From positions 1 to 64,000 of the forward strand of contig NZ_MJEI01000097.1 in the NCBI RefSeq assembly GCF_002095395.1: a DNA stretch of 64,000 bases, in the 5' to 3' direction. The translations under genes and the position numbers were made by a program. The DNA comes from Williamsia sp. 1135. Its GTDB lineage: Bacteria; Actinomycetota; Actinomycetes; Mycobacteriales; Mycobacteriaceae. How positions within the stretch are numbered: the stretch's first letter is position 1; each line of letters begins with the position of its first letter. This document shows, in pieces, positions 20,802-58,166 of this stretch. A model generated the notes under the pieces. That model did not search any database, had not been told where the DNA came from, and saw only the letters and a program-made list of their open reading frames with translations.

Positions 20802-20819
20802 GTCCAGACACGTGTCCAG
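20802..20819. promoter_or_regulatory. Operator-like site GTCCAGACACGTGTCCAG
   Basis: The core GACACGTGTC is a perfect 10-base palindrome flanked by GTCCA and CAG. It lies between the divergent TetR and aldA genes, 16 bases before the aldA start and just ahead of its AGGAGG ribosome site. The same 18 bases recur with one change at 45461 and at 58149, and degenerately at 46607 and 62228. Confidence 0.75.
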
Positions 20820-20835
20820 AAGGAGGCGATCGGCG

Positions 20836-22302
20836 ATGACGCTGAGGCCAGAAAGCAGCTCCGAGCTGTTGATAGACGGAAAATTGGTACCGGGATCCGG
20901 CGGCACCTTCGACATCATCAACCCGGCCACCGAGGAGGTGATCGGGCAAGCCGCCGACGGCACCGCCGCCGACATGGACGCGGCCATCGCGGCAGCACGT
21001 ACCGCCTTCGACACCACCACCTGGTCACGTGATCCGGCGTTCCGCGCGAAGTGCCTCCGCCAACTACGCGATGCACTACAGGGCCACGTCGACGAACTAC
21101 GTGAGATCACCATCGCCGAGGTGGGGGCACCGCACTTCCTCACCTCGGGCCCGCAGCTCGAGGGACCCATCGCGGACCTGGGCTACTTCGCCGACCTGGC
21201 CGAGAACTACCAGTGGAGTTCCGATCTCGGTCGCGCCAAGCCGATGGGCATCAAGAACGACCGCGTGGTGCAGCGCGAGGCCGCCGGCGTCGTCGGCGCC
21301 ATCACACCCTGGAACTTTCCCCACCAGATCAACTTCGCCAAGATCGGGCCCGCGTTGGCCGCCGGCTGCACCGTCGTGCTCAAGCCCGCCCCCGACACCC
21401 CCTGGTGTGCGGCGCTGGTCGGCAAGGTCATCGCCGAGGAGACCGACATCCCCGCCGGCGTCATCAACATCGTCACCTCGAGTGACCACAGCGTCGGAGC
21501 ACTGCTCTCGACCGACCCCCGGGTCGACATCGTCTCGTTCACCGGTTCCACCGCCACCGGCAAGAAGGTGATGATCGCCGCGGCCGAGTCACTCAAGCGG
21601 GTGTTCCTCGAACTCGGCGGCAAATCGGCGTTCATCGTCCTCGACGACGCCGACCTCGCCTCGGCCTGCTCGATGGCCGGATTCTCCGTGGTCACCCACG
21701 CGGGCCAGGGATGTGCCATCACCACCCGCCTCCTGGTGCCGCGTGAAAAGTACTCCGAGGCAATCGCACACGTGCGCGACAGCATGGCCGGGCTGCCTGC
21801 CGGCGATCCCACCGATTCTGGGACGATCTGCGGACCGGTCATCTCCGCGGTACAGCGTGACCGTGTCGAGAGCTACATCCAGCTCGCCCGCGACGAAGGC
21901 GGCACCATCGAGGTCGGTGGCGGGCGCCCGGCGAACAAGGACAAGGGCTACTTCATCGAGCCGACGCTGATCTCGGGCGTCGAGAACTCGGCCCGGGTCG
22001 CCCAGGAGGAGATCTTCGGCCCCGTCCTGGTGATCATCCCGCACGACGGCGACGACGACGCGATCCGGATCGCCAACGACTCTCCGTACGGATTGTCCGG
22101 CGCGGTCTGGGGTACCGATCCCGACCGCATCAAGAAGGTGGTCGACGGGGTACGCACCGGGACCATGAGCATCAACGGCGGGATCTGGTACTCAGCCGAC
22201 ATCCCGTTCGGCGGCTACAAGCAATCCGGAATCGGCCGCGAGATGGGTGTGGCCGGCTTCGAGGAGTACCTGGAAACCAAAGCCATCGCGACACCAGCAT
22301 AG
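20836..22302 (+). CDS. aldA: NAD(P)-dependent aldehyde dehydrogenase (Rv0768-like)
   Basis: A 488-residue aldehyde dehydrogenase with PWNFP at 158-162 (catalytic N160), FTGSTATGK near 235, LELGGKS with general base E259, and GQGC with nucleophile C293. The ATG at 20836 follows AGGAGG, so the longer in-frame start at 20812 is rejected. It is the first gene of the rightward arm that matches Rv0768-Rv0771 and would oxidise the aldehyde made by the P450/alcohol dehydrogenase steps to an acid. Likely repressed through the site at 20802-20819. Confidence 0.94.
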   Translation: MTLRPESSSELLIDGKLVPGSGGTFDIINPATEEVIGQAADGTAADMDAAIAAARTAFDTTTWSRDPAFRAKCLRQLRDALQGHVDELREITIAEVGAPHFLTSGPQLEGPIADLGYFADLAENYQWSSDLGRAKPMGIKNDRVVQREAAGVVGAITPWNFPHQINFAKIGPALAAGCTVVLKPAPDTPWCAALVGKVIAEETDIPAGVINIVTSSDHSVGALLSTDPRVDIVSFTGSTATGKKVMIAAAESLKRVFLELGGKSAFIVLDDADLASACSMAGFSVVTHAGQGCAITTRLLVPREKYSEAIAHVRDSMAGLPAGDPTDSGTICGPVISAVQRDRVESYIQLARDEGGTIEVGGGRPANKDKGYFIEPTLISGVENSARVAQEEIFGPVLVIIPHDGDDDAIRIANDSPYGLSGAVWGTDPDRIKKVVDGVRTGTMSINGGIWYSADIPFGGYKQSGIGREMGVAGFEEYLETKAIATPA

Positions 22303-22315
22303 GGAGCAAGAAACA

Positions 22316-23053
22316 GTGAGCAACAACAGATTCGAAGGCAAGACCGCCATCGTCACCGGAGCCGCCGGTGGCATCGGCGAGGTCTACGCACGCCAGTTGG
22401 CTGCGGAGGGCGCCAATGTCGTGGTGGCCGACCTCAACGACGAGGCCGGCAAGCAGGTCGCCGCCGATATCGGTGGTCTCTACGTCAACACCGATGTCGC
22501 CGACCCGGAGTCCGCGCAGGCCCTGGCCACCGCCACCCTCGATGCGTACGGCCAGATCGATTACCTGGTGAACAACGCCGCGATCTACGGCGGAATGCAG
22601 CTCGACTTCCTGATCACCGTGCCGTGGGACTACTACAAGAAGTTCATGAGCGTGAACCTCGACGGGGCACTGAACGTGACCCGCGCGGTCTACGGACACA
22701 TGAAACCCGGCAGTGCCATCGTCAACCAATCGTCCACCGCTGCATGGCTCTACAGCGGCTTCTACGGTCTCGCGAAAGTCGGCGTCAACGGTTTGACCCA
22801 GCAGTTGGCCACCGAACTCGGCGGTTCCGGCATTCGCGTCAACGCCATCGCGCCAGGGCCGATCGACACCGAGGCCACCAAGTCGACCACGCCGGGCAAC
22901 ATGGTCAAGGACATGGTCGCCAAGCTGCCACTGTCCCGGATGGGGACTCCCGACGACCTCGTCGGCATGCTCCTGTTCCTACTCTCCGACGAGGCGAGCT
23001 GGATCACCGGGCAGATCTTCAATGTCGACGGCGGACAGATCATCCGGTCATGA
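22316..23053 (+). CDS. Short-chain dehydrogenase (Rv0769-like)
   Basis: A 245-residue SDR: TGAAGGIG cofactor loop near 14-21, NNAA near 87, SST and YGLAK with catalytic Tyr/Lys, C-terminal NVDGGQI. The GTG at 22316 follows GGGAG with suitable spacing. It is 13 bases after aldA and overlaps the next gene by four bases (ATGA). In position and type it matches Rv0769. The substrate is probably a hydroxylated lipid intermediate of the neighbouring P450s. Confidence 0.92.
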   Translation: MSNNRFEGKTAIVTGAAGGIGEVYARQLAAEGANVVVADLNDEAGKQVAADIGGLYVNTDVADPESAQALATATLDAYGQIDYLVNNAAIYGGMQLDFLITVPWDYYKKFMSVNLDGALNVTRAVYGHMKPGSAIVNQSSTAAWLYSGFYGLAKVGVNGLTQQLATELGGSGIRVNAIAPGPIDTEATKSTTPGNMVKDMVAKLPLSRMGTPDDLVGMLLFLLSDEASWITGQIFNVDGGQIIRS

Positions 23054-23901
23054 GCGATCACACACCCGTCGGTTTCATCGGCCTGGGCAACATGGGACTT
23101 CCGATGGCGCAGAAGCTGGCCGGATGGGACGGCGGTTTGACCTTCTGCGACCTGAACCCGGATGTCGACGTGGAGGGCGCGACGCGCGCTGATTCCGCTG
23201 CCGAGCTTGCCAAGTCCGCGAGCGTCATCGGAGTGACCGTCCTCAACGACGAGCAGGTCAACGCTGTGGTTGCCGGTCCGAACGGCATCCTCGAGACCGC
23301 GGAGCCGGGCACCGTGATCGCGATCCATTCGACGATCAGCCCCCAGACCGCGGTCGATCTGGAAAAGCAGTGTGCGGCGCAGGGCGTGGCCCTGGTTGAC
23401 GCGCCGGTGTCCGGGGGTGCAGACGGAGCGAAACAGGGCCGTCTGGCGATCATGGTCGGCGGCGAGCGGGACGCCTATCTGAAACTGAAAGAACCCTACT
23501 CGCTGGTGTCGGACATGATGATCCACGCCGGGCCGATCGGGGCCGGTACCAAGATGAAGCTGGCCCGGAACCTCCTTCACTTCATCTCGTTCACCGCCAC
23601 CACCGAGGCCTCTCGGCTCGCCGAGGCAGCCGGGATCGACATCGTCAAACTCGGCAAGGTGGTTCGCCACACCGACGCGATCACCGGTGGCGCCGGAGCG
23701 ATCATGCTGCGGGAGACCACCGCCCCGATTGCAGCCGACGACTTCTGGTACGACATCTTCACCCACGTCCGAGGACTCGGCGAAAAGGATCTCGGACTGG
23801 CCTTGCAATTGGGAACCGAACTGGGCGTGGAACTTCCGCTGGGCGAGATCGCCTTGGAACGGTTTGCCGACGGTTTGGGCGTAGGAAGGGACAACGCATG
23901 A
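23050..23901 (+). CDS. 3-hydroxyisobutyrate-dehydrogenase-like beta-hydroxyacid dehydrogenase (Rv0770-like)
   Basis: A 283-residue protein with the Rossmann start VGFIGLGNMGLPMAQKLAG, the substrate loop DAPVSGGADGAKQGRLAIMV, and GAGTKMKLARNLL carrying the catalytic Lys of the beta-hydroxyacid dehydrogenase family. It would oxidise a 3-hydroxy acid, or reduce an imine or semialdehyde, with NAD(P). ATGA overlap with the upstream SDR and with the downstream decarboxylase-like gene. The long in-frame extension upstream is Arg/His-rich antisense-type sequence and is not part of the protein. Corresponds to Rv0770. Confidence 0.92.
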   Translation: MSDHTPVGFIGLGNMGLPMAQKLAGWDGGLTFCDLNPDVDVEGATRADSAAELAKSASVIGVTVLNDEQVNAVVAGPNGILETAEPGTVIAIHSTISPQTAVDLEKQCAAQGVALVDAPVSGGADGAKQGRLAIMVGGERDAYLKLKEPYSLVSDMMIHAGPIGAGTKMKLARNLLHFISFTATTEASRLAEAAGIDIVKLGKVVRHTDAITGGAGAIMLRETTAPIAADDFWYDIFTHVRGLGEKDLGLALQLGTELGVELPLGEIALERFADGLGVGRDNA

Positions 23902-24311
23902 CATCGGAAGACACCACTGAGCAGCGTCAAAAGGGCTTGGACATGATGTCCAAGGTCTACGGCTGGGAGATGAAAGACGGGCCGGGAGACTTCTTCGCGC
24001 ACACCGCCGATCATCTCTTCGGCGAGGTGTGGACGCGTGAGGGGCTCTCGATCAGGGACCGTCGGTTGCTACTCCTGGGCGCGTTGGCGGCCACCGGACA
24101 GACAGATGTCGCAGAGATCCAAGCGGGTGCCGCACTGGGCAACGGGGAACTCGACGGTGACCAATTACGCGAGATCGCACTCTTCCTCTGCTACTACATC
24201 GGGTGGCCGCAGGGCACCCGGCTCAACTTCATGTTCGGCGACGTCATCGGCAAGTACGAGAAAGCCCAGCGGAAACAGGCGCAGAGCAACGGGACCCAAG
24301 CGAGCTCATGA
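23898..24311 (+). CDS. Carboxymuconolactone-decarboxylase-like protein (Rv0771-like)
   Basis: A 137-residue all-helical CMD/AhpD-fold protein (FGEVWTREGLSIRDRRLLLLGALAATGQ; LREIALFLCYYIGWPQGTR). It lacks the CxxC pair of AhpD peroxidases, so it belongs to the decarboxylase-like branch; true 4-carboxymuconolactone decarboxylation is doubtful in this context. ATGA overlaps on both sides put it in one operon with aldA, SDR and dehydrogenase, as Rv0771 is in M. tuberculosis. Confidence 0.9.
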   Translation: MTSEDTTEQRQKGLDMMSKVYGWEMKDGPGDFFAHTADHLFGEVWTREGLSIRDRRLLLLGALAATGQTDVAEIQAGAALGNGELDGDQLREIALFLCYYIGWPQGTRLNFMFGDVIGKYEKAQRKQAQSNGTQASS

Positions 24312-25293
24312 CCTTCTTCGCGACCCGGTACGACTTCCGGGCGCCTGGCGCCTCACCGACCGCGCGTGCCGAACTGTTCGCGCGCGCGGTCGAACAGGTC
24401 TCCTACCTCGACACGCACGATCAGGACGTCGTGATGCTCTCCGAGCATCACGGCTCCCCCGACGGATATCTTCCGAATCCACTGATGGTTGCCTCGGCGT
24501 TCGCGGCCGTCACCTCCCGGATCATGCTCACGATCTCCGCCATCGTCGTCAATCTGCACCACCCGCTCCGGCTCGCCGAAGACATCGCGGTGCTCGACCA
24601 CCTCAGTGGCGGCCGGGTGTCGTACACCCTCGGACTCGGCTATCTCCCTGACGAATACGCGCAATTGGGCGCGTCCTGGAAGACGCGGGGCGCAGACATC
24701 GAGCAGGCCATCCACGTTCTGCGTCAGGCATGGACCGGTGACGAGTTCGAGTTCGATGGACGCCCGGTGCAGGTCACCCCCACACCCCTGTCGCATCCGC
24801 ATCCCATGTTGTCCTACGGCGGAGGATCACGAGCGGCAGCGCTACGGGCGGCACGTCTGAACCTCGGCTTTCAGCCGCAGGTCGCCGATCCCGAACTGCG
24901 CGAACTCTACGACAACGAATGTCGGGCACACGGTCGCGACCCCGGCTTCGTGATGACTCCGCCACCGGGACCGTCGACAGTCTTCTGTGCCGAGGATCCC
25001 GATCACTTCTGGCGCGAGTACGGCGAGTTTCTCCTCGCCGACGCCAGAGCCTACGACGCCTGGCACGGCGATCACGCGTCCCACGTCAGGGACAGCTCGA
25101 CAACCGTCGCCGAATTACGCAGCGGCACCGGCTACGTCGTGTGCACTCCGGATGAGCTGATCAACCGTTGCCGAAGCCGCGAGTTCAAACTCGTCACCAG
25201 CCACCCCCTCTGTGCGCAGGCATGCCCGAGAAGCCGTCCTGGGAGAGCGTCCACCTGATCGGCGAGAAGGTCATCCCCGCGCTGAGGTCCTGA
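24308..25293 (+). CDS. Luciferase-like (LLM) oxidoreductase with C-terminal frameshift
   Basis: A flavin- or F420-dependent LLM-fold enzyme, about 327 residues if repaired. EHHGSPDGYLPNPL, LDHLSGGRVSYTLGLGYLPDE and the PHPMLSYGGGS segment are clear. In the literal sequence it ends at 25258 with an unlikely tail (ACPRSRPGRAST). Restoring one C in the run CCCCC at 25204-25208 yields PPLCAGMPEKPSWESVHL, a normal LLM C-terminus, and moves the stop to 25293. The ATG at 24308 overlaps the CMD stop (ATGA), so it is the last gene of the aldA operon. Sequencing error or a recent mutation would explain the shift. Confidence 0.8.
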
Positions 25294-26002
25294 CGTCGAG
25301 TGACTCTGCGAACGAAGCAATCGACGCGCCGGTGAGTTCCGGCTGAATGAGTGGGAACAGGTGACTGGCGCGAGGTATCACGGTGAGGTTCGCACGCGGT
25401 GACACCGCCGCGAAGCGACGTTCATTCACCCGGAACTGGTCCCAGCCACCGTTGATGAACTCGATCGGCCCCGGATAGCGGGCGAGCTCGCCGAGGGCAT
25501 CGAACCGAGATACCTCGGCAACGACGTCCTTGATCGACGCCAACGCAAGGCCACCGACCTCCATGTCCTCGGACACCTGCCGTCCGACCGCGGCACGGGT
25601 CAGCCACCGGCTCATGGTCGCAGCTTGCTCCGGCAGGTAGGCGGTTGCGGCCCCGAAGGCACGGAACGGGGTGGCGAAGAACCGGCTGGGTTGCGCGGTC
25701 GCGCACATGGCGACCAGGCCTGCGACAAGTTCGGGACGCCTGCCCGCGACTGCCATCGAGACGTAGCCACCCATCGACATGCCTGCCACCACCGCAGGTC
25801 GGCCGAGCACGTCGATCGCATCTGCGACGGCGTCGACGGCGCCGGCAAGGGTGAAAGTCTCATCCCTGCGCTCACCGTGACCAGGCAGATCCGGACACAC
25901 CACGCGTCTACCGGGAATGGCAGCGGCAATCCGGTGCAGCGAGGCACCACTGACGCGCATCCCATGGACCAGGACGACCGGCGTAAGTGCAGACGCAGAC
26001 AC
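25271..26002 (-). CDS. Alpha/beta hydrolase
   Basis: A 243-residue alpha/beta hydrolase with LVHGMRVSG oxyanion loop near 11-19, nucleophile elbow GMSMG with S76, acid D188 (GGWDQF) and H214 (RASHLFP). An esterase, thioesterase or lactonase is likely. The GTG at 26002 begins the conserved first strand; the in-frame extension to 26629 overlaps the divergent amidohydrolase gene and is not coding. Its 3' end overlaps the repaired 3' end of the LLM gene by 23 bases, tail to tail. Confidence 0.87.
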   Translation of the reverse strand: MSASALTPVVLVHGMRVSGASLHRIAAAIPGRRVVCPDLPGHGERRDETFTLAGAVDAVADAIDVLGRPAVVAGMSMGGYVSMAVAGRRPELVAGLVAMCATAQPSRFFATPFRAFGAATAYLPEQAATMSRWLTRAAVGRQVSEDMEVGGLALASIKDVVAEVSRFDALGELARYPGPIEFINGGWDQFRVNERRFAAVSPRANLTVIPRASHLFPLIQPELTGASIASFAESLDVRTSARG

Positions 26003-26077
26003 GACGCCAGTATGCCTACGCTGCCGACCGACAGGCGTCTTCGGCGTGAACACCGTCGGTGGGTAACGTGAAGAACT

Positions 26078-26977
26078 GTGTCTGAACCCGAAGCGCTGTC
26101 CGCCGCCGAGGCCGATGCAGTCCGCGCCGTCTGGCAGCAACTCGGCCTGCCCGGACTGATCGACGTGCACACCCACTTCATGCCGAAGCCGGTCATGGAC
26201 AAGGTCTGGGCGTACTTCGATTCGGTGGGACCCCTGGTCGGCCGGGAGTGGCCGATCACCTACCGCGCCGACGAGGACCGACGGGTAGAGGTCCTGCGCG
26301 AGTTCGGTGTACGCGCGTTCACGTCGATGATCTACCCCCACAAACCGGAGATGGCCGCGTGGCTCAACAGCTGGGCCGCCGACTTCGCCGCACACACGCC
26401 GGACTGTCTCCACACGGCGACGTTCTATCCGGAGATCTCGGCACCCCACTACGTCGACGCCGCCATCGAATCCGGAGCGAAGATCTTCAAGTCGCACATC
26501 CAGGTCGGCAACTACAATCCGACTGATCCGCTGCTCGACGGCGTCTGGGGTGCAATCTCCGACGCGGCCATACCCGTGGTCATCCATTGCGGATCGGGTC
26601 CGGCACCCGGACAGTTCACCGGACCGCAACCGATCACCGAACTCTTACGCAAGTTCCCGAGTCTTCCGCTCGTCATCGCGCACATGGGCATGCCCGAATA
26701 CGATGAGTTCCTGGATCTGGCAACAACATACGACCGGGTTCACCTCGACACCACCATGGCGTTCACCGACTTCGCCGAAGAGATGGCGCCGTTCCCGATC
26801 AGCTCGACCCAGAAGCTACGCGACCTCGGCGATCGCATCCTCTGGGGCAGCGACTTTCCCAACATCCCCTACACCTACACCAGCGCCCTTGACGCCGTGA
26901 CGCGGCTCGGCCTGGGTGACGACTGGGCCCGCGGGGTGCTCTACGACAACGCGGCGCGGCTGTTCCAGATCACCTGA
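26078..26977 (+). CDS. Amidohydrolase 2 family (TIM-barrel metal-dependent hydrolase)
   Basis: A 299-residue amidohydrolase-2/ACMSD-like protein: GLIDVHTHF with metal ligands H31 and H33, central VVIHCGSG, LVIAHMGMPEY, and ILWGSDFPNIPY with the conserved Asp. It would hydrolyse or decarboxylate a cyclic or carboxylic substrate. The start is GTG at 26078; TAACGT 8 bases before it is a plausible -10, giving a leaderless or nearly leaderless mRNA. It is divergent from the alpha/beta hydrolase (75-base gap) and ends in a strong hairpin. Confidence 0.88.
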   Translation: MSEPEALSAAEADAVRAVWQQLGLPGLIDVHTHFMPKPVMDKVWAYFDSVGPLVGREWPITYRADEDRRVEVLREFGVRAFTSMIYPHKPEMAAWLNSWAADFAAHTPDCLHTATFYPEISAPHYVDAAIESGAKIFKSHIQVGNYNPTDPLLDGVWGAISDAAIPVVIHCGSGPAPGQFTGPQPITELLRKFPSLPLVIAHMGMPEYDEFLDLATTYDRVHLDTTMAFTDFAEEMAPFPISSTQKLRDLGDRILWGSDFPNIPYTYTSALDAVTRLGLGDDWARGVLYDNAARLFQIT

Positions 26978-26985
26978 CCCACAGA

Positions 26986-27049
26986 TGCACACGTTCGAGC
27001 CAAATGCACACGTTGCAACGTGTGGTTATGACTCAAACGTGTGCATTTG
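26986..27049. terminator. Nested hairpins between convergent genes
   Basis: TGCACACGTT occurs at 26986 and 27005, and its complement at 27017 and 27036. CACACGTTGCAACGTGTG (27007-27024) is an 18-base perfect palindrome, while CAAATGCACACGTT (27001-27014) pairs perfectly with 27036-27049 to give a longer alternative stem. It lies between the stops of the amidohydrolase and the DUF2277 gene and probably terminates both strands; it has no strong T tract. Confidence 0.65.
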
Positions 27050-27058
27050 CAGGGTGTT

Positions 27059-27340: not shown

Positions 27341-27355
27341 GGGCCCTCCCTGTTG

Positions 27356-29054
<1,699 letters not shown>

Positions 29055-44897: not shown

Positions 44898-45470
44898 TCA
44901 GGCCAGGATCCGGCGTACTGCCGACTCCAATTGATCAGCGACCTCGTCGTAGGAGAAGTGCCCTGTACCCGCTCGCACCATGGCTCCCGTATAGATCAGC
45001 TCGATCAGTTCGATGGTCTGGGAGTCACCGGCCGTGCCGACCGCTGCAGCGATCGATTTGTGGATCACCCGGCTTACCTGCGTTCGCAGCTCCACCACAT
45101 CTGCGTCGTCGCTGAGCAGCGATTTCGTCACCGCCCCGGCGAACTCGGGCTCGTCCGCGACGAGTAAGGCGAGCTGACGCAGTACCGCGACCACGCGGTC
45201 GGCAACCTCTGGAGCATCGTTGTCGGGCGGCGAGATACTCGCCAATCGTCGCCAGTAGACCTCCGCGACGAGATGTTCTTTCGAGGAGAAGTAGATGTAC
45301 GCCGTGGCCCGGGCCATGCCTGCATGTGCGGCGACCATGGGGACTGTCATCTCCGAATAACCCACCTGGCGCAGGACTTCGACCGTGGCGTCGCCGAGCC
45401 GGAGGACCGTGTCCGCGCGCTTACCGGTCAGACGCCGGCGGGTCGCTTCAACTGCAGTCGGTTCAGACAC
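44898..45470 (-). CDS. TetR-family regulator, paralogue of the 20179 regulator
   Basis: A 190-residue TetR regulator whose start (SEPTAVEATRRRL) and helix-turn-helix (TVPMVAAHAGMARATAYIYFSSKEHLVAEVYWRRL) closely match the regulator at 20179 (FSSKGHVVAELFWRRL). The recognition helix region is nearly the same, consistent with both using the GTCCAGACAC(G/A)TGTCCAG site. The GTG at 45470 is chosen by that alignment; a GTG at 45482 is possible. The operator-like site overlaps the start codon. It follows the reductase gene by 11 bases. Confidence 0.88.
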   Translation of the reverse strand: MSEPTAVEATRRRLTGKRADTVLRLGDATVEVLRQVGYSEMTVPMVAAHAGMARATAYIYFSSKEHLVAEVYWRRLASISPPDNDAPEVADRVVAVLRQLALLVADEPEFAGAVTKSLLSDDADVVELRTQVSRVIHKSIAAAVGTAGDSQTIELIELIYTGAMVRAGTGHFSYDEVADQLESAVRRILA

Positions 45471-45481: not shown

Positions 45482-46588
45482 CTACGGGAGTGGGTTGGGC
45501 CTTGCAATCGGGTCAGACGTGGTGTTGCCAAAGCCATAGTGGCTGCGGACAAGCGGTACGTCGGCCATCGTCGCAGGACCAGGCGGGGCCTCGCACACCG
45601 CATCGATGGCGTTGACGATCTGCATGGCCGTGGCGACGCTGGCAGCGTGGACATGGTCGGCGATCGGCGCGTCACGCGTGAAGCTGGCGAGGGAGAAGAA
45701 GTGGGTCTGCATCGACGGCTCGCCTTCGATCGTCAGGGTCCATCCATGCTTGGGCCTCGGCCAGTGCGGAGGGTCTTCACCTCCAACAGTCCACAGCGCC
45801 TCGATCTCGATGAGTTCGTCGTCGCCTCGACGCCCCACCCATCGCCAGCGTTGGCCCGCGGTGGTCCCGGCTCGCAACAGATGATCGAAGATCTGATGAT
45901 CTGCAACCGCAGCAACGGCTTCGACATCCGCGGTGACCGTATCGATGCCGGCGTTCAGAGCGTCGGCGAGAAACCACACCTGTTCTACGAACAGAGAGCT
46001 GTTGAAGGCGAGGAACTCGCTACCCGTCGGGCTGATCGTCTCAGGAGGCTCGCCAAACGCCATGTTGTCGAACGTGATTCCCGTGCTCTCGTACACCGAC
46101 CAGTCAGCGCGTTCCTGCAGGGTGATCTTGTCGATGCGTTTGCTCATCCCGGACAGCGCCAGCGGCAGGACGCCGGACAGATTGCCCGGGTTCAGCCCAC
46201 TCCTGTGCACGCTCGTTCCACCGGTCTCGCACGCTGCGATGACGCGTTCACGATCGGCGATATCGAGACGGTGGGGGTGGAACATGAACGCTGTCGTGCA
46301 CACATTTTTGCCCGACGCGAGGATCTGGCAGACCTCCGTGACCGACGCGGTACGCGGGGTGTAGATGACGAGGTCCGCCTCCATGGCAAGGATCTCCGCC
46401 GACTCACCGGTCGCCACTACGCCCTGGTGGGGTCGGCCGACGAGAGCACCGACATCAACACCGACCTTCTCGTCGGAATACACTCGGGCACCCACGATCT
46501 GAAGATCCTCGCGGGTGTCGATGATGGCCTGCAGCGCCTCCGCCCCAACCGCTCCGGTGCCCCATACGATGACGCGCCGTCTGTTCAC
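45482..46588 (-). CDS. NAD(P)-binding reductase, dihydrodipicolinate-reductase-like
   Basis: A 368-residue protein with an N-terminal Rossmann motif VIVWGTGAVG (G10-G15) and a DapB/diaminopentanoate-dehydrogenase-like layout: VIYTPRTASVTEVCQILASGKNVCTTAFMF. Mycobacteriales carry many paralogues, usually annotated dihydrodipicolinate reductase, but it is too long for true DapB and has no lysine-pathway neighbours. It is likely an oxidoreductase for a lipid or steroid-like ketone. Cotranscribed with the downstream TetR gene; divergent from the SnoaL gene. Confidence 0.82.
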   Translation of the reverse strand: MNRRRVIVWGTGAVGAEALQAIIDTREDLQIVGARVYSDEKVGVDVGALVGRPHQGVVATGESAEILAMEADLVIYTPRTASVTEVCQILASGKNVCTTAFMFHPHRLDIADRERVIAACETGGTSVHRSGLNPGNLSGVLPLALSGMSKRIDKITLQERADWSVYESTGITFDNMAFGEPPETISPTGSEFLAFNSSLFVEQVWFLADALNAGIDTVTADVEAVAAVADHQIFDHLLRAGTTAGQRWRWVGRRGDDELIEIEALWTVGGEDPPHWPRPKHGWTLTIEGEPSMQTHFFSLASFTRDAPIADHVHAASVATAMQIVNAIDAVCEAPPGPATMADVPLVRSHYGFGNTTSDPIARPNPLP

Positions 46589-46606: not shown

Positions 46607-46624
46607 AAACAGACACCTATCCAG
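46607..46624. promoter_or_regulatory. Degenerate CAGACAC...TCCAG site
   Basis: AAACAGACACCTATCCAG matches the 18-bp motif at 13 of 18 positions and lies between the divergent reductase (start 46588) and SnoaL gene (start 46665). Weak on its own; its position next to the TetR paralogue supports it. Confidence 0.4.
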
Positions 46625-46664
46625 ACTATGATCCAGGTATACCCGCGAAAGGCCGATCACACTC

Positions 46665-47120
46665 ATGGACATTCAAGAGATCAGCGACAAACTCGAGATC
46701 GCCGACGTACTGAGCACCTACGCCCGCGCCGTCGACACCAGAGACTGGACGTTGTGGCGGTCGGTGTTCACCGATGACGCACATGTCGACTACTCATCGG
46801 CGCCGTACGGCCGGGCGGGCAGTCGCGACGAGATTGCCGACTGGCTCAGCGCCAACTTCGAGTTCATCACCATGAGTCAGCACTACATCACCAACATCGA
46901 GAGCCGGATCGATGGTGACACCGCGAAGGTGCGGGCCATGTTCTACAACCCGATACAGCTGCCCGGCACCGATGGCCTCAGCTTCTGCGGTGGCTGTTAC
47001 CACCACGACCTTGTTCGGACGGACACCGGTTGGCGCTGTCGCAAACTCGTCGAAGAGAATGTCTGGTTCTTCAACAACCCGCTGGGCGGTACGGCGTCTG
47101 CCCACCCAACCGGGTCGTGA
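46665..47120 (+). CDS. SnoaL-like (NTF2 fold) protein
   Basis: A 151-residue SnoaL_4-type protein: ISDKLEIADVLSTYARAVDTRDWTLWRSVFTDDAHVDY at 5-43, the standard helix and first strands, with D24-R26-D27 and H40 in usual positions, and YHHDLVRTDTGWRCRKL at the end. Family members include dehydratases, isomerases and cyclases acting on steroids and polyketides. Divergent from the reductase at 45482. Its last 50 bases overlap the 3' end of the IclR gene, tail to tail. Confidence 0.85.
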   Translation: MDIQEISDKLEIADVLSTYARAVDTRDWTLWRSVFTDDAHVDYSSAPYGRAGSRDEIADWLSANFEFITMSQHYITNIESRIDGDTAKVRAMFYNPIQLPGTDGLSFCGGCYHHDLVRTDTGWRCRKLVEENVWFFNNPLGGTASAHPTGS

Positions 47121-51042: not shown

Positions 51043-51085
51043 TTTTCGAACCGCCCCACTTTCGGCGGCCGGCGAGAGGTGAGTA

Positions 51086-51934
51086 ATGACCGGATCTGTT
51101 TTGGTGGTCATCGGTGTCGGCGGTATGGGAGAGGCGATCGCGCGCCGTCTTGGTTCCGGCAGGCCGACGCTCATCGCCGACCACGATGCCGAGCGGGTCG
51201 AGGGCCTGCGAGAGCAGCTGCGACACAGCGGCTACGACGTTCACGCCCAACGAGTTGATGTCGTCTGCCGGGACTCGCTGAGCGCCCTGGCCGCAACGGC
51301 GGCCGAGCTCGGTGACATCACGTCCGTCGTGCACACTGCAGGCGTCTCCCCCGCTCAGGCTCCGGCACGCCAGATCGTCGAGGTGGACCTCGTGGGCACA
51401 GCGCTCTCGCTCGAGGTGTTCGGCTCCGTGATCGCCCCGGGCGGTGCCGGAGTGTACATCGCGAGCGTGGCAGGCCACATCCTCGGAGCGGCGGTCGACG
51501 AGGCCTCTGCCGCGTTGCTCAGCGGCGGCACCCCCGACGAATTGGCCGGTGCCGCGATCTTCGACATGCCGGATGTGCCGGACGACCTCGCCAGGGCCCT
51601 GACCTACGGGTATTGCAAACGGGGGAATCAGCTCCGGGTACAAGCCGCGGCACATTTGTGGGGCGAACGAGGCGCACGGGTCAACAGCGTGAGCCCAGGG
51701 GTGGTGGCCACTGCGATGGGCTGGGAGGAGTTCAACGCCGACTTCGCCCACCAGGCCTACGAAGCGATGATCAACGACTCCCCCGCGGGCCGGTTCGGTA
51801 CCGCCGAGGACGTCGCCGCCGCCACCGAATTCCTACTGGACAACAGCAAGTCGAGCTTCATCGCCGGTACAGATCTGCTTGTCGACGGTGGAGTCGTCGC
51901 GGGCTTGCGCAGTGGCGCACTACAGATGGGCTGA
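51086..51934 (+). CDS. Short-chain dehydrogenase (atypical)
   Basis: A 282-residue SDR. The cofactor loop is GVGGMGEA instead of TGxxxGxG, and the HTAG and catalytic IASVAG segments follow. The active-site Tyr/Lys is YGYCK, still in YxxxK spacing, and there is an inserted region of about 30 residues (AALLSGGTPDELAGAAIFDMPDVPDD) before it. The C-terminal SSFIAGTDLLVDGGVVAG is normal. Follows the TetR gene in the same direction. Such SDRs occur in polycyclic and steroid clusters, but no substrate can be named. Confidence 0.83.
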   Translation: MTGSVLVVIGVGGMGEAIARRLGSGRPTLIADHDAERVEGLREQLRHSGYDVHAQRVDVVCRDSLSALAATAAELGDITSVVHTAGVSPAQAPARQIVEVDLVGTALSLEVFGSVIAPGGAGVYIASVAGHILGAAVDEASAALLSGGTPDELAGAAIFDMPDVPDDLARALTYGYCKRGNQLRVQAAAHLWGERGARVNSVSPGVVATAMGWEEFNADFAHQAYEAMINDSPAGRFGTAEDVAAATEFLLDNSKSSFIAGTDLLVDGGVVAGLRSGALQMG

Positions 51935-51970
51935 CAAGTCGGACGGACCCGATACCGCGCCCGCACACGA

Positions 51971-53593
51971 TCAGTGCAGTGCCTCGTTGGACGCAAGGGC
52001 GAGGGACGGCTTCGCCTCGCGATCAGACGAACGGTGACCAAGGCTCGCTGCGACTGCCGCCGCGGCGGGAACTGCGGAACCGGCGCACCACGCAACACAT
52101 CGATCGGGCCGCACGAGCACCAGGTGCTGATCGTAGGTTTGCGCGGGCACCTCCACGACATCGATGGTGAAACCGTCCTGCAGAGCGGCCGCCGCGAGTT
52201 GCTCCGCTTCCGTACGCGCCGACGGTTCGGCGATGACGACCAGCTTGCCTCTGACGAGGTCGAAGGCAGCCAGTGATTCCCCGAGCCGGCGATGAGGGAG
52301 CCGGCGACCGGGAACCACGAGACCATCGTCCACACGACCATCGGTGCGTGGGCAGACAACGGGTGACCCGCTGAAGGTGTCATAGACGGTGCGGAGCATC
52401 CGGTCGATACGCGGGCCCTGCGCGTCGACCACCCATTCTCTGAGCATCGCCCTGTCGAGGTCACGGGCGGAGCCACGTTCGCCGAGTACCCGGTGGATGC
52501 GAGCGCGGATCACGTTGTCTCCCGTCTGTACGGCCAGTGCGTACGCCCGGGCAAACGGATGTCGTTCCGCCTCATAACTGTCGAGCAGCGCCGGTCCGGC
52601 GTCGCCCCGGATTGTTGCCGCGAGCTTCCACGCGATGTTTGCGGCGTCTCCACTGCCCAGATGGAGCCCGAGTCCACCGGGTGGCATCGCGTGAGCAGCA
52701 TCGCCCACCAGGAATACCGATCCTTCCCGCATCCGTTCGGACCAGCACGCGTTCGCGCGCCACCGCGTCACTCGGCTGTGCGACGTCACCGAAACCGACT
52801 TCCCGACAACCGCTTCGATCAAGCCGACAGGGTCTGGGAACAACGACGTCAGATCAGTGCTCGCCTCCTGGATGTGTAATGTCCGCTTCGACCGGGCGTC
52901 TCGTTGAAGGAAGTACGCGACCATGTGCTCGTTGATCGCCCAGTACTGGTTGTGCACACCCTGGCCCATCCTCTCGCGCAGGTCGGGTGATTCGAACTCG
53001 AGCGTCCACCGTTCGGCGAATCGCGGACTGTCGAGGAGACCGATGCCCACCGCGCTTCGCACCGCGCTGTTGGCGCCGTCACAGGCGGCCAGGTAGCGGC
53101 CCCGCAAGCGCACACGATTGCCGTCCGGTCCGACAACTGTGACGCTGACGCCGTGGTCGTCCTGGACCAGGTCACCGTCGAACCGGAACCCGTAAAAGGT
53201 GGAGACGGTCGGCTCCTCCCCGATGGTGTCGCGGAGCAATTGCTCCACCATCGCCGAAGGCGCGTTCTGGGGCGGCTCGGCGGTGACGTCGGTGCAGGAG
53301 GTCGTGGCGTTCAGCACGGCAACAGCAGGCTCGGCCAGCCACGTCGCGTAGACCGCAGTCCTCGCCCAGCCCGGCGGGATCGGCGCGATCGAGCGCAAAC
53401 GGTCGGCGAGCCCGAAATGCCGCATCTGCTCCATCATCTGGTGGCTGATGCCACCCGCCCGAACCCCGGGCAGCGGGGCGAGCCCGGAGTCCACAAGAGC
53501 AGTGCGGATGCCATGTCTACCCAGGTCCAGCGTCAGCGCCAGCCCCGTCGGCCCGCCGCCGATCACGATGACATCGGTGTCCAAGTCGTTCAT
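51971..53593 (-). CDS. FAD-dependent aromatic hydroxylase (phenol hydroxylase/PHBH-type)
   Basis: A 540-residue group A flavoprotein monooxygenase: GGGPTG at 12-17, DG motif YLAACDGANSAVR, and GDAAHAMPPGGLGLH with the second FAD site, then a thioredoxin-like C-terminal domain of about 150 residues. Typical substrates are phenols or aromatic acids hydroxylated with NAD(P)H and O2. It lies 61 bases downstream of the ABC importer genes on the same strand, suggesting that the importer brings in its substrate. Confidence 0.9.
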   Translation of the reverse strand: MNDLDTDVIVIGGGPTGLALTLDLGRHGIRTALVDSGLAPLPGVRAGGISHQMMEQMRHFGLADRLRSIAPIPPGWARTAVYATWLAEPAVAVLNATTSCTDVTAEPPQNAPSAMVEQLLRDTIGEEPTVSTFYGFRFDGDLVQDDHGVSVTVVGPDGNRVRLRGRYLAACDGANSAVRSAVGIGLLDSPRFAERWTLEFESPDLRERMGQGVHNQYWAINEHMVAYFLQRDARSKRTLHIQEASTDLTSLFPDPVGLIEAVVGKSVSVTSHSRVTRWRANACWSERMREGSVFLVGDAAHAMPPGGLGLHLGSGDAANIAWKLAATIRGDAGPALLDSYEAERHPFARAYALAVQTGDNVIRARIHRVLGERGSARDLDRAMLREWVVDAQGPRIDRMLRTVYDTFSGSPVVCPRTDGRVDDGLVVPGRRLPHRRLGESLAAFDLVRGKLVVIAEPSARTEAEQLAAAALQDGFTIDVVEVPAQTYDQHLVLVRPDRCVAWCAGSAVPAAAAVAASLGHRSSDREAKPSLALASNEALH

Positions 53594-53654
53594 GTGAGCA
53601 AATCCTTCGGGTAAGACGTCAGCCCGGTCTTTGGAGACGCGGCTGTGCGTGATG

Positions 53655-54691
53655 TCAGCGACCGAGTCGCGCGTGAGCCTCGGCGACGAGCGAAGGGTCG
53701 AACAGCGACTGCTCGGCAGCTATGGATTGTGCTTCGAGGGTCACGAGTGTGCCCTCTATGCGCTCTTCCGACATCGTCAGGACGGGTGTCGAGTCGTCAG
53801 GCCGGACCAGCTCCACCTGTGCCGAGGCCTGTGCACTCTGCTGTGCGGGGTCGAGGCCGAGCCCGGCCGCATAGTCGGCGACCACGATGTCCGCGATACC
53901 TGCGGGATCATCGACGGCTGCCTCCCAACCGCGGATCTCCGCCATCAGGAAACTGATGATCGCCTCCCGCTTCGAGGGGTCTGCCAGGTCGGCTGTCGGT
54001 ACCGCATAGGTGAGGTCGAGGCTGTCCATGCCGTTGTCCGAGAAGCGAAGAGCGACAGGGTCGTGGCCTTGCAACTCGAGCGCGACGACCTGGCTTGTGA
54101 CGAGGCCGAACATGCCATCCACCTGACCGTTGATCAGGGGTGTCGCGTCACCTTGGATGGGCACGATCTCGACGGCGGATGCGTCGATCCCGTTGACCGC
54201 CAAGAAATGGCCGACCGTGGTGTTGGAGGTGACCACCCCGATGCGCTTTCCGGCCAGATCGTCGAGAGAGTCGATCGGATCGTCGGCGAGCGAGACTATG
54301 GCACTCGGGGAGGACTGGTTGCCGGCGGCGATGATCGTGAGGTCGGCGCCTTCGGAGACGGCGCGAGCGGTTGTCCCCGGGTTACTCATCGCGATGTCCG
54401 CTGTTCCCTGCACCAGAAGGGGTTCGACGGCAATCGAGGCGCCGCCGGGGTCATGTTCACATCGACACCCTCGTTGTCGTAGAAGCCGAGGTGGTCTGCG
54501 GCATAGCTACCGGCGAACTGCACGCTGGGGGTGAATCGCAACTGAAGATCGATCGACGATGGTCCTTGGTCGGATTCCGCATCCGACTGTGTCGACGTGC
54601 CGCATCCGGCGAATGCGAGAGCAAGCACGGCGATGGCACCGGCGAGGGTGGCCCGCCTGAGTTTCGGTCCAGAGATCGGTGTTTCGGGCAT
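53655..54691 (-). pseudogene. ABC substrate-binding lipoprotein (NMT1/SsuA-like), frameshifted
   Basis: Two frames together encode a 345-residue binding protein. Frame 1 (from ATG 54691) gives a signal peptide with lipobox FAGC and RFTPSVQFAGSYAADHLGFYDNEGVDVNMTP split across it; frame 2 continues with VQGTADIAMSNPGTTARAV to the stop at 53655. One missing C at about 54445 (CCGCCGGGG for CCGCCCGGGG) explains the break, and the repaired junction reads MTPGGASIAVEPLLVQG, exactly the family pattern. As given the gene is broken; since the rest is intact it is a sequencing error or a very recent mutation. Family: nitrate/sulfonate/pyrimidine-precursor binders. Confidence 0.82.
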
Positions 54692-54744
54692 GCGGGAGCT
54701 GCCTTTCGAGTAGTTGGGGGAATGTGCGATCAGTACTGGGTCGA

Positions 54745-56352
54745 CTACCGGAGTCGACGAGCAACGGCCTTCTCGGCCGCGTTGATGCAGGCGTACAGGG
54801 AGACGGAGAACACGGTGAGCACAACAAAACTCGACCACATCGTGGTGTAACGCGATTCCATGGCTGCCTGGATCATGAGATGGCCGATGCCGTCTCCGGT
54901 GGCGAGCCACTCCGCGCTCATCGCCCCGATCAAGGCGGCGGGTCCGGTGATCTTGAGACTGGTGAAGATCGCCGGGATCACGTAGTACCGGTGCACCTTC
55001 CAGCGCATGGTGAGAGGTGTTGCGTTGTAGGCCTCACCGAGCTGGATGATATCTTTCGGAACGCAGGGCGCGGCCTGCACCACGTTCACGAAGGTGGCGA
55101 AGAACGCCAAGATCGCCGCGACGATGACAGCGGTGACGTATCCGTTGGACACCAGGAGGCTGATCAGAGGGATGAGCGCGAGGAGTGGTATCGCACGGAA
55201 ACCGACAACGATCGGCGTGAGGGCAGCATCGACTCGCCAGAATGACATGACGACCAACGAGAGTGCCAGCGCCACCACGGTTCCCACGGCCAGACCGGCA
55301 AATGCCTTGGCAGACGTCGACGCGAGATATCCCAGGATCTCCGTGCGGTTCGCGGCAGAGGCCTCGCTGCCGAACAGATAGGTCCACACATCTGCGGGCG
55401 TCTTGGCGAAGTACGAGTTGAGGCCGAATATGCGAATTGCGCCGTACCAGAACCCGACCACCACCACGAAAGCGACGACGGCGGACGCTGCCGCACCCAG
55501 TACACCGGCGTGGTCGGAGTTCCGATCGACTCGATATTCCTGGGATTGATCGGTCAACCATGGTGCGGCGACCCGCCGCGCTCGACCGATGAGCGCGAAG
55601 AACAGCCCCGACATCAGGGCACACACGATGGAGATCGCCCACACACGTTCGACCGCCAGAGCCTCCTGCGCAGCGATCAGTGCGCCGCCCAGTCCCTGGC
55701 CCATGATGAGGAACTCACTCATCAACGCCCCGAGAACCGCTGCGGGCGCGGAGAGCATCAGGCCGGACAGCAACGAGGGAATCGCATAGCGCAGCCGGAT
55801 CTTGCACAGCTCACTGAGGGCACCGCCTCCGAACGCGCGGTTCATCTCCAGAGACTGGGGGCTCGCCTGCCGCAGTCCGGCGACAAAGCTCATGACCGTC
55901 AGGAAGAAGACGAAGATGGCAGCCATGACCACACCGGGTGTATTGCCGGTCGCGACGATCATCAGAATCGGTGCCAGGGCGATGGTGGGCAGACTGTCTG
56001 CGATGATCGCGGTCCGGACCACAACACTCTCGATGAGACGTGACAACACCGCGGCCAGTCCCACGGTGATCGCAAGTCCGGCTCCCCATGCGAACCCGGT
56101 CGCGGCCGTCGCTGCCGTTTGCGGGAGGTTCGCGACAATGACGTCGCGAGAGTCGATGAAGGAGTTGAGGATTGACAACGGCGAGGGCAGGACACGCCGT
56201 TCTTCGAGCCCGGCCAAGGCCACCGCCGTCCAGATCACCAGCAGAATCGCGATCCCTGTAAGCGACCAGCAGACCTGAGGATTCAGCCTCGGCCGGCCAC
56301 GATCGGTGCGGATCTGCGCAAGAGGGACCGGGCTTTGAAGAGTCTGCGTCAT
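54745..56352 (-). CDS. Fused double ABC permease (SsuC/TauC-like x2)
   Basis: A 535-residue protein with two complete permease domains in tandem, residues ~1-265 and ~275-535, each with six or so helices and an EAA-type loop ([37 protein letters not shown]). Most relatives encode one domain that homodimerises, so this is a covalent heterodimer. The ATG at 56352 overlaps the ATPase stop (ATGA) once the ATPase frame is repaired. With the ATPase and binding protein it forms a full importer. Confidence 0.9.
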
Positions 56353-57148
56353 GCTGCGCTCTCGGTGTGGGTCTGCAGCGCGAAGAGCCTGCGCGACAGC
56401 GCGTCACACACGTCGTGGAAAGCGCTGGTGAGCATGAGATCAGGGTGCGCGGTCGCGCGAAAGGCACCGGCACGATGTCGACGATGCGGCCGGGCCGCGG
56501 GCTCATCACCACCACCTGGTCGCTGAGGAACACGGCTTCGGTGATCGAATGCGTGACCAGCACGGTGGTGGTCTGCGTAGACATCCAGATTCGCTGCAGT
56601 TCGATGTTGAGTCGTTGCCGGGTGAATTCGTCGAGGGCCCCGAACGGTTCGTCCAGGAGGAGAAGTTCGGGATCTGCGCTCAGCGCGCGGGCAATGGCGA
56701 CACGCTGACGCATGCCACCCGAAAGTGCGGCCGGCCGGGACTTCTCGAACCCCTCGAGCCCGACCAGTGCTATCAGGTCGGCAATGGCGCTCTTGGAGAG
56801 TGGTCGACGTTGAATCTCCGAAGGAAAGCGGATGTTGTCGACAACGGATCGCCATGGGAGCAGTGCCGGCTCCTGGAACGCGATACCGAGGCGGCCGTGC
56901 TTGCGCACACTCCGAGGATGTTCACCGTCGATCGAGACCGATCCTTCGGTCAGGTCTTCCAGGTCGCCGAGAATACGTAGGAGTGTCGACTTGCCACACC
57001 CGCTGGGCCCGATCAGGGAACTGAATGACCCGCGTGCCGCGGTGAAACCGACCCGGTCGAGCGCCAGCATCTCTTCCTTGCGATTCCGGTAGATCTTGCT
57101 CGCGTCAGTCACCGCGATTCCTGCGCCCGCCGCTGCTTCGTGCCTCAA
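56349..57148 (-). CDS. ABC transporter ATP-binding protein (SsuB/TauB-like), C-terminal frameshift
   Basis: An ATPase of about 266 residues: Walker [10 protein letters not shown] at 47-55, [15 protein letters not shown], Walker [15 protein letters not shown]-loop [13 protein letters not shown]. In the literal sequence the frame runs on to 55811 with a nonsense tail overlapping the permease gene. Adding one G/C at 56443-56445 (GGG to GGGG) restores [18 protein letters not shown] and places the stop at 56349, giving the usual ATGA overlap with the permease. It is the first gene of the importer operon, divergent from the TetR gene at 57330. Confidence 0.85.
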
Positions 57149-57230
57149 CTGACCTGCCCTCCGAATGCTGCTCGCGGACGCCGGTGTGGCGTCCGTCCTG
57201 ATCGATCTTCTCCAGCTGCGCGGGACTTTA

Positions 57231-57243
57231 CAACAGCCTGTTG
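57231..57243. promoter_or_regulatory. Palindrome CAACAGCCTGTTG
   Basis: Perfect six-base arms around one C, in the 181-base region between the divergent ABC operon and TetR gene, with a further CTGTT at 57248. A probable operator for the TetR at 57330. Confidence 0.6.
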
Positions 57244-57329
57244 GAAACTGTTACGCGTCGTTCATTCGAGTTCACAGACCTGAAACATGCTCGGCAGGCA
57301 GCCCTTCGGGAGTCTGACACTATTGAGAC

Positions 57330-58025
57330 ATGGCAACGGCACGAAGAAGCCCGGGCACCCGCAAAATTGGTCGCCCCGCACAAGTCGATCGAGCCGTCAT
57401 CCTCCGTGCGGCAGGACAACTCGGCTTCGACAGCCTCACCATGACCTCACTGGGCAAGCATCTCGGGGTCAGCCATTCCACCCTGTACGGGCACTTCGCC
57501 AGTCGCGACGAGATCGTCCTCGCATCCATCGAAGACATCTTCGGCGGCGTGCAATGGCCCCGGTTCGACGGTGACTGGAGACCGTTTCTGCGTGCGACCA
57601 TCCTGCAGTTCTGGGATGTCCTGAACGATCATCGCGGTTTGGCGTTCGAACTCGACTCGACGCGCATATCGCTTCCACGCGGATATGCAGAATTCGTGGG
57701 GAACCTCCGGGGAGGTCTACTGGACGCCGAGTTCTTGCCCCTGGACGCGATACTGACCGCAGAGATCTGCGCGGAGCAGGCACTTGCGTTCCACAAGTTC
57801 ACAAGGGACGCACAGGGCCGCTCACTGACCGTCGGCGAATACCGCGCCAATTTGAAGGACAAACCTCTCGATAGCCTGCGGGGCATCGACGACCGCGGCC
57901 GACAGGGCATTGCCGAAATGGTCCAGATCGACCCCCGAGAGTGGTTCAGCCTCAAGCTCGACGTGGTCCTGGACGGCATCGAGTCACTCCGGCAGCGCCA
58001 CAGCGGACCATCGTCCGACACCTGA
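57330..58025 (+). CDS. TetR-family regulator
   Basis: A 231-residue TetR regulator: GRPAQVDRAVILRAAGQLGF, then TSLGKHLGVSHSTLYGHFAS as helix-turn-helix at about 39-58, and a TetR_C-like domain. The RKIGRPAQVDR start is typical of TetR proteins near aromatic or drug genes. Divergent from the ABC importer/hydroxylase operon, which it likely represses through the CAACAG palindrome. Confidence 0.87.
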   Translation: MATARRSPGTRKIGRPAQVDRAVILRAAGQLGFDSLTMTSLGKHLGVSHSTLYGHFASRDEIVLASIEDIFGGVQWPRFDGDWRPFLRATILQFWDVLNDHRGLAFELDSTRISLPRGYAEFVGNLRGGLLDAEFLPLDAILTAEICAEQALAFHKFTRDAQGRSLTVGEYRANLKDKPLDSLRGIDDRGRQGIAEMVQIDPREWFSLKLDVVLDGIESLRQRHSGPSSDT

Positions 58026-58034
58026 GGTCGCGTC

Positions 58035-58060
58035 CGAAGGGATTGCTCGAAGGGATTGCC
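58035..58060. repeat. 13-bp direct repeat
   Basis: CGAAGGGATTGC(T/C) occurs twice head to tail, 12 of 13 bases identical, just after the TetR stop. In the rest of this 234-base gap lie CTGGACATGTG at 58111 (a half copy of the 18-bp motif) and TAGCGT near 58135, a possible -10. Confidence 0.6.
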
Positions 58061-58148
58061 TGACAGACACGCGGGCGGCACCGAAGTGATCAGACCACCG
58101 GACGTCTTCGCTGGACATGTGACGGGTGTTACCCTAGCGTGAACGTAC

Positions 58149-58166
58149 GTCCAGACACATGTCCAG
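58149..58166. promoter_or_regulatory. Operator-like site GTCCAGACACATGTCCAG
   Basis: Identical to the site at 20802-20819 except G to A in the centre. It lies 94 bases upstream of the mycofactocin-type SDR start, with a half copy at 58111-58121. It links this gene to the CYP51/aldA locus regulator or its paralogue. Confidence 0.7.

Follow-up and report, generated by a model that had tools for sequence, protein, structure and literature searches.

Why one short element recurs before genes that lie far apart is the question raised by a 64,000-nucleotide stretch of DNA from Williamsia sp. 1135 (contig NZ_MJEI01000097.1, positions 1 to 64,000; hereafter the window). A first-pass annotation had noticed an 18-bp repeat in it and proposed that the repeat ties five promoters to two paralogous genes for TetR-type repressors, here called TetR1 and TetR2. 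Our analysis suggests that the element is very probably the operator of TetR1, a conserved repressor of the Rv0767c type, which would control the regulon described below by blocking transcription.

The repeated 18-mer belongs to a palindrome

The three close copies begin at positions 20802 (GTCCAGACACGTGTCCAG, the reference for mismatch counts in the window), 45461 (GTTCAGACACGTGTCCAG) and 58149 (GTCCAGACACATGTCCAG); each of the latter two carries one change relative to the first, exactly as had been annotated. When the window was searched with up to three mismatches, only these three matches were obtained against a chance expectation of 0.19, and none of 100 shuffles reached three. Indeed, they are also the only matches with no or one mismatch (pattern with R) in the whole genome of 5.98 Mb. 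Beyond this trio, the genome scan suggested by the first-pass annotation was uninformative with the 18-mer itself: at up to three mismatches it gave nine forward and no reverse matches, and a control pattern written backwards gave 12 and 9. Genome-wide matches with two or three mismatches are at chance level and are no commoner than those of the backwards pattern; hence, the extent of the regulon cannot be read from a mismatch search.

The 18-mer is part of a 20-bp palindrome, KTCYRGACAYRTGTCYRGAM, which was seen from the upstream regions of TetR1 orthologues. Its core is CYRGACAYRTGTCYRG, and its consensus can be written CYRGACA-YR-TGTCYRG; across 25 training sites GACA and TGTC never change, in contrast to the variable YR steps beside them. 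The training sites, for a scoring matrix and for the model R1 alike, matched at least 18 of the 20 consensus positions. R1 is a symmetrical, sequence-only model made from the 25 distinct sites, with this genome left out. L026 (17/20) and L009 (the copy of this genome) stood outside the training set, in which an identical copy from G001 remained.

At a threshold of E ≤0.1, R1 found five strong sites in this genome: C30:20801 (21.8 bits), C26:162742 (19.4), C30:45461 (19.3), C30:58148 (18.4) and C104:31000 (15.5). Four of them were absent from training. All five precede genes or overlap start codons, and are not scattered through coding sequence at random, an outcome that the first-pass annotation had named as speaking against its proposal. 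In 15 scanned loci the strong and weak scores were separated by a gap (13 sites at 23.6 or above, none from 12.6 to 23.6). Outside that scan, the gap is partly filled by the sites of TetR2 and of a mycofactocin-coupled short-chain dehydrogenase (SDR) in the genomes G001, G002 and G007 (10.9 to 28.3).

The three repeats might be due to chance, or might echo the coding sequence of a TetR start, as a portion of the 45461 site covers the TetR2 start codon and the looser matches are at chance level genome-wide. This is extremely improbable given that no shuffle gave three matches, that the sites at 20802 and 58149 lie upstream of called genes, and that footprints of the element are kept over many genera. 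We rejected a chance repeat on the strength of the shuffles, the controls and the permuted matrices described below.

The element accompanies TetR1 across genomes

We examined a set of named loci, the best 80 of 579, in which genes were called with a home-made script. In 74 of 79 named loci, which extend to another order, the TetR1-type gene has a site of at least 18 matrix bits at its start; the aldehyde dehydrogenase gene aldA has one no more than 250 bp upstream in 50 of 54. At least one such site is present in 75 of the 80 loci; 20 column-permuted matrices matched zero to two of the 80. No site equal to a training 24-mer occurs in 39 of the 75 site-bearing loci, and 12 of the 80 duplicate the DNA of a locus in the first set, usually a training locus. 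In ten of the 80 the site was flagged within a called gene, probably because start calls were too long. The site is found in 10 of 12 loci, none used in training, from Actinomadura, Spirillospora, Nonomuraea, Planomonospora and a Streptosporangiaceae. Actinomadura is a member of the order Streptosporangiales, to which the others presumably belong as well. Where TetR1 is located elsewhere, sites remain with the aldA and CYP123 operons (e.g. L100, L102, L104 and L106).

R1 was applied with stricter filters (match threshold, E 0.05) to 101 genomes, in which a TetR1 orthologue was counted at 150 bits or more. A match was obtained in 37 of the 38 genomes with TetR1 versus 2 of the 63 without it (hand tally; Fisher 5e-24, uncorrected for kinship). 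Training sites and near-copies inflate this count: 21 of the 38 genomes gave training sites and 9 have near-copies, and the motif is present in 7 of the remaining 8. In G020, the single TetR1 genome lacking a match, the gene start carries a weaker site (19.3 matrix bits). More distant TetR paralogues (L120, L121, L122 and L073) are preceded by palindromes that are akin to this one without being the same, a pattern to be expected from co-evolution of operator and repressor. Those of L122 (34 bp upstream of the TetR start; GTCTTTACACGTGTAAAGCC) and L073 (83 bp; GTATTTACACGTGTAAGGTA) suggest that the operators may have diverged through changes in the outer letters of the half-sites.

Sites and genes of the putative regulon

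The annotation had predicted one regulon covering the P450 operon, the aldA operon, a reductase/SnoaL pair, the mycofactocin-coupled SDR and possibly F420 enzymes. The sites support this for the TetR1-CYP123-SDR-CYP51 operon, the aldA operon and the mycofactocin-coupled SDR, and probably for an F420-type enzyme; for the reductase/SnoaL pair it is unproven. The features are collected in Table 1.

Table 1 Operator sites and genes of the window, with the supporting domain or model matches
Feature	Coordinates	Strand	Evidence and remarks
Cytochrome P450 (CYP51 by gene order)	16801..18153	-	PF00067
Short-chain dehydrogenase (Rv0765c position)	18150..18944	-	NF005854, 403.8 bits, cut-off 260
Cytochrome P450 (CYP123 by gene order)	18944..20182	-	PF00067; same operon as TetR1, 4-bp overlap
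TetR1, Rv0767c-type repressor gene	20179..20769	-	PF00440 4.8e-14
Operator 1	20802..20821		Palindrome GTCCAGACACGTGTCCAGAA between divergent TetR1 and aldA; R1 21.8 bits, E 9e-4 genome-wide
aldA, aldehyde dehydrogenase, Rv0768 family	20836..22302	+	TIGR04284, 906.5 bits, cut-off 775
SDR of aldA operon (Rv0769 position)	22316..23053	+	NF005853, 411.9 bits, cut-off 303, on open reading frame (ORF) 22247-23053; start by script
3-Hydroxyisobutyrate-dehydrogenase-like enzyme, aldA operon	23050..23901	+	Six NCBIfam matches, all below cut-off
Carboxymuconolactone-decarboxylase-like (CMD) protein, aldA operon	23898..24311	+	PF02627
Luciferase-like (LLM) oxidoreductase, aldA operon end	24308..25258	+	PF00296 on longer ORF 24203-25258; TIGR03619 below cut-off
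TetR2, second repressor gene	44898..45470	-	PF00440 2.3e-13, PF17925
Operator 2, over TetR2 start codon	45461..45480		R1 19.3 bits, E 0.006 genome-wide
Reductase with DAP_DH_C domain, upstream of TetR2	45482..46588	-	PF19328, PF01113
Weak operator-like sequence	46607..46626		Between reductase and SnoaL genes; 9.2 matrix bits
SnoaL-like protein	46665..47120	+	PF13577
Operator 3, upstream of mycofactocin-coupled SDR	58149..58168		R1 18.4 bits, E 0.011 genome-wide
Mycofactocin-coupled SDR	58260..59078	+	TIGR03971, 380.1 bits, cut-off 300, on 58200-59078
LLM1, F420-dependent LLM class oxidoreductase	61325..62185	-	TIGR03619, 246.4 bits, cut-off 166.9
Degenerate operator (annotated at 62228)	62226..62245		Upstream of LLM1; 12.0 matrix bits

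The TetR1 locus has the composition of an Rv0767c-type regulon, namely a TetR-CYP123-SDR-CYP51 operon and a divergent aldA of the Rv0768 family; the type is assigned from the gene order and the aldA family. The names CYP123 and CYP51 rest on the gene order printed in PMC10470581 rather than on a subfamily test. The annotation had placed two of the sites at TetR genes; indeed, the site at 20802 precedes TetR1 and that at 45461 overlaps the start codon of TetR2. Operator 1 spans 52-33 bp before the TetR1 start, and a palindromic operator thereby stands at the regulator's own and divergent promoters; it is kept in 9 of 9 genomes of the genus. The best site begins 51-52 bp before TetR1 in 12 of 30 loci (four genera, including this one), where it may also serve the divergent gene, and lies over or adjoins the TetR1 start codon in the other 18. 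In the window, one operator half-site is kept over the start codon in the start region of TetR1 (20762-20780; TGTCACTGTCCATGTCCAG, minus strand). It occupies the place of the complete site of the 18 loci and appears to be the decayed remnant of an ancestral operator. In two loci of other genera (L100, 8746-14746; L102, 3694-9515), LLM1 and an FAD enzyme follow closely after the CMD gene in the same orientation, prolonging the aldA operon; the FAD enzyme of L100, the one tested, scored above the NF005512 cut-off.

The mycofactocin-coupled SDR has a strong site of its own, whose half-sites are largely kept in G001, G002 and G007 (10.9, 24.5 and 18.0 matrix bits) with diverged flanks. In the named loci, a site shared with aldA stands 250 bp or less from this gene in 4 of 4 cases, and both SDRs tested (L107 and L115) passed TIGR03971. 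In Rhodococcus/Prescottella (L107, 5182-6039; L115, 6197-7054; L186, L193 and L207), the mycofactocin-coupled SDR is found between TetR1 and aldA, and the operator region is common to it and aldA. The gene for the mycofactocin maturase, mftC, was found above cut-off in 37 of the 38 TetR1 genomes versus 29 of the 63 others (hand tally, kinship uncorrected); the TetR1 genome without it is G021, which is 66% complete. According to the NCBI note on TIGR04284, members of this family occur in mycofactocin makers.

With a mycofactocin-coupled SDR among the targets, the sites could be those of a different regulator (MftR or an ArsR-type factor, for example), with TetR1 as a mere neighbour; moreover, the corresponding M. 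tuberculosis block has been ascribed to Rv0576 (PMC10470581). MftR, the repressor of mycofactocin biosynthesis, resembles TetR1 in its family and in its mycofactocin-related physiology. However, it is encoded by a separate gene (G000:C48, 284.1 bits, cut-off 224.9), its published palindrome, T-N2-GGCA-N5-TGCC-N2-A (PMC8728441), differs, and it governs synthesis of the cofactor, not the enzymes that use it. As the site tracks TetR1 across genomes, we consider another regulator very improbable. MftR itself was rejected: TIGR03968 gives TetR1 only 38.4 and TetR2 29.5 bits against the cut-off of 224.9, and the operator differs. TetR3, at 57330, was set aside as a candidate regulator of operator 3, because 20802 and 45461 carry the element too without having TetR3 next to them.

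Two of the strong sites lie outside the window and mark putative regulon members that the first-pass annotation had missed. C104:31000 precedes an SDR-reductase operon, and a site stands before these genes in 9 of 9 genomes of the genus. C26:162742 overlaps the apparent start of a thiolase-like gene, which is followed by a DUF3556 gene. A site of this kind is present in three of the nine; G002 yielded no thiolase, and there the site stands before the DUF3556 gene. The thiolase-like gene behind this second strongest operator (L061, G000:C26, 5754-7313) shows by eye an apparent frame change near 6045, which may be an assembly error or mark a broken gene.

The two degenerate copies annotated at 46607 and 62228 are each at chance level (E 1.2-4.1 over 64 kb). 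Weak matches of at least 9 matrix bits in the window number two in 5.9 kb of intergenic DNA versus none in 57.9 kb of coding DNA, with about 0.1 intergenic match expected from a simulated intergenic background. Only 62228 is backed by other genera, in which LLM1 orthologues have graded sites 57-107 bp upstream. Among 22 LLM1 rows at 55% identity or more, which include near-copies (four rows from this species group, two from a single genome), LLM1 follows another gene by 31 bp or less in four and has no site; of the other 18, 15 score at least 6.9 (maximum 27.4), one scores 4.8 and two have none (L177 and L113). As a control, the region upstream of the GH gene at 62265 scored above -9 in 0 of 24 rows. 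At a cut-off of 18, the LLM1 site is found in only 2 of 11 named loci. The 62226 region is identical over most of its length in four close genomes, which says little, and its counterpart in a fifth genus member, G003 (L140), scores only 6.9. Judging from these sequences, 62228 probably does belong to the regulon, as a weak or altered site. At the same place, positions 62226-62240 form a perfect palindrome, GACTGG-ACA-CCAGTC, so that another regulator is possible there. A site is also present at a glycosyltransferase-methyltransferase-GH operon in L111 and L118. The nearest counterpart in this genome, G000:C30:67287 (L132:4288), lies just beyond the window between two divergent genes (GTCCAGATTGGTGTCCAGAT, 9.9 matrix bits). 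Its sequence is the same in G001 and G002 and scores below 8 in G007, a comparison that is uninformative because the surrounding DNA is 89-96% identical throughout.

TetR2 and the site at 45461

Operator 2 is retained in G001, G002 and G007 with zero to two changes. No operator was found at the start of the TetR2 orthologues of G004, G005, G006 and G008 (71% identical in those compared). TetR1 and TetR2 are 48% identical. Their recognition helices, annotated as alike, have five of seven residues in common at positions 54-60 of the TetR1 model (A55, T56, A57, Y58 and Y60) and differ in two, P54R and T59I. Position 54 varies among site-bearing relatives; T59I is confined, in the set compared, to the TetR2 clade and to L123, its sister. 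In a tree of 53 proteins, which like the co-occurrence test and the named loci contains near-copies, TetR2 clusters with the copies of G004, G006 and G008 (support 96/85). Further out, it is placed near the TetRs of G036 and G058 with weaker support (91/75, 82/86), and it is not grouped with the TetR1 of the genus (moderate support). From this placement, TetR2 looks like an old or imported paralogue rather than a recent duplicate.

Contrary to the annotation, the site at 45461 can serve only TetR2, as it sits between TetR2 and the reductase gene. The reductase and SnoaL genes are ruled out as its targets by gene order. The counterpart of the weak sequence at 46607 scores 9.2 bits in G001 and 8.5 in G007 and is absent from G002; among the loci compared it is confined to Williamsia, and its role as a reductase/SnoaL operator is unproven. 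The reductase is 31% identical to that of the SDR-reductase operon outside the window.

These features raise the possibility of a switch in which TetR1 and TetR2 bind the same operators, respond to different releasing ligands and read two signals, TetR2 being itself under TetR1. The operator at the TetR2 start in four Williamsia and the shared helix residues are consistent with such a switch. So are the pairs of TetR1-type genes, both with a site, in one genome (L089/L134, L084/L133, L026/L092 and L025/L098), and the published motif X discussed below precedes three TetR genes (PMC6593523). The four TetR2 orthologues without a start site and the restricted occurrence of T59I argue in the other direction, and TetR1 alone could bind 45461. 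We therefore regard the switch as possible but somewhat doubtful, and TetR1 is taken below as the regulator of the element.

Proposed mechanism

A TetR1 dimer would bind the palindrome just downstream of, or over, the -10 region and transcription start and, when bound, would block transcription initiation; a small lipophilic metabolite would release it. In this way, TetR1 would control its own P450 operon and the divergent aldA operon, and in addition the mycofactocin-coupled SDR, TetR2, the SDR-reductase operon and the thiolase-DUF3556 operon, with the F420-type enzyme probably included. The enzymes could take a hydroxylated lipid of the sterol or terpenoid type from alcohol via aldehyde to acid. 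By eye, possible -10 sequences are TACACT before aldA and TACCCT before SDR, 13-14 bp upstream of the sites, and TAGTGT, which overlaps the edge of the TetR2 site.

TetR1 has the TetR_N helix-turn-helix and, in its structural model (nine helices, mean pLDDT 86.6), the all-helical C-terminal domain of the TetR family. The model is nearest to KstR (Rv3574), the repressor of cholesterol catabolism (ranks 1-8, TM 0.71-0.79 over the query). This fold would fit a bulky lipid or acyl-CoA ligand. KstR has a dispersed regulon of lipid-oxidising genes and an operator, TnnAACnnGTTnnA, from which the present palindrome differs; with an identity of 21-22%, TetR1 does not qualify as a KstR.

Relation to known regulators

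A motif has been predicted for Rv0767c with an E-value of 1.2e-14, short of that paper's own cut-off (PMC4482099), and the phytosterol-linked motif X has been described for G155_05115 (PMC6593523). As here, these systems have a TetR gene beside cyp123/cyp51 and aldA, a palindromic motif with a site near the regulator start, several site-bearing TetR genes, and SDRs, P450s and aldehyde dehydrogenases as targets (PMC4482099, PMC6593523). Of the 14 motif X operons with the Rv0767c orthologue, phytosterol raised 12 by more than 3-fold in Mycobacterium sp. VKM Ac-1817D (PMC6593523). Reused chromatin immunoprecipitation (ChIP) data show Rv0767c sites rich in GAC and GTC (PMC10312376), in agreement with the GACA and TGTC of the operator. 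KstR3 of Mycolicibacterium neoaurum is also a TetR-type negative regulator of sterol catabolism; unlike TetR1, it acts on the atf1-chsH4-chsE6 operon (PMC10398937). The kind of operator and regulon is thus already known, whereas the Williamsia genome contributes a mycofactocin-coupled SDR that has a site to itself, the SDR-reductase and thiolase operons and the likely F420 enzyme. What is new is the link to mycofactocin and F420: mycofactocin is not mentioned in the main text of PMC6593523, and a literature search with most subscription journals outside its scope found no paper with both mycofactocin and Rv0767c.

Several points weigh against the assignment to TetR1 and the mechanism given above. 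Five of the 79 named loci have no site at the TetR1 start and four of the 54 none at aldA; G023 and G085 have an R1 match without TetR1; and in one mycofactocin SDR locus, L198, the site is 245 bp away with none within 160 bp. A consensus scan found no sigma-70-type promoter in 20600-20900, the -10 positions being assigned by eye, so that promoter blocking is a mechanism that we infer. Because TetR folds are much alike, the resemblance to KstR says little in favour of a sterol ligand. In addition, most of the genes in question were not raised in M. smegmatis and R. jostii RHA1 (PMC6593523), and the Rv0762c-Rv0771 block of M. tuberculosis, there ascribed to Rv0576, fell to 0.14-0.25 with p-hydroxybenzaldehyde (PMC10470581). 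Finally, the palindrome is only presumed to be the same as motif X and the Rv0767c motif (PMC4482099, PMC6593523).

Biological meaning

To our knowledge, no settled role has been assigned to bacterial CYP51/CYP123 or to the Rv0768-type aldehyde dehydrogenase, and mycofactocin-coupled enzymes have few known substrates. A broader picture can be drawn in which TetR repressors across two actinobacterial orders use one operator to couple P450, NAD, mycofactocin and F420 oxidoreductases in one lipid alcohol-to-acid pathway, at least two repressors of different ligand specificity competing for it so that two signals are read; in our estimation this is conceivable but unlikely. The shared operator itself hints at a single pathway for the P450, aldA and mycofactocin-coupled enzymes. 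If so, the P450, mycofactocin and F420 enzymes would be co-induced by one substrate class, and an alcohol intermediate would stay unoxidised in cells that have lost the mycofactocin system.

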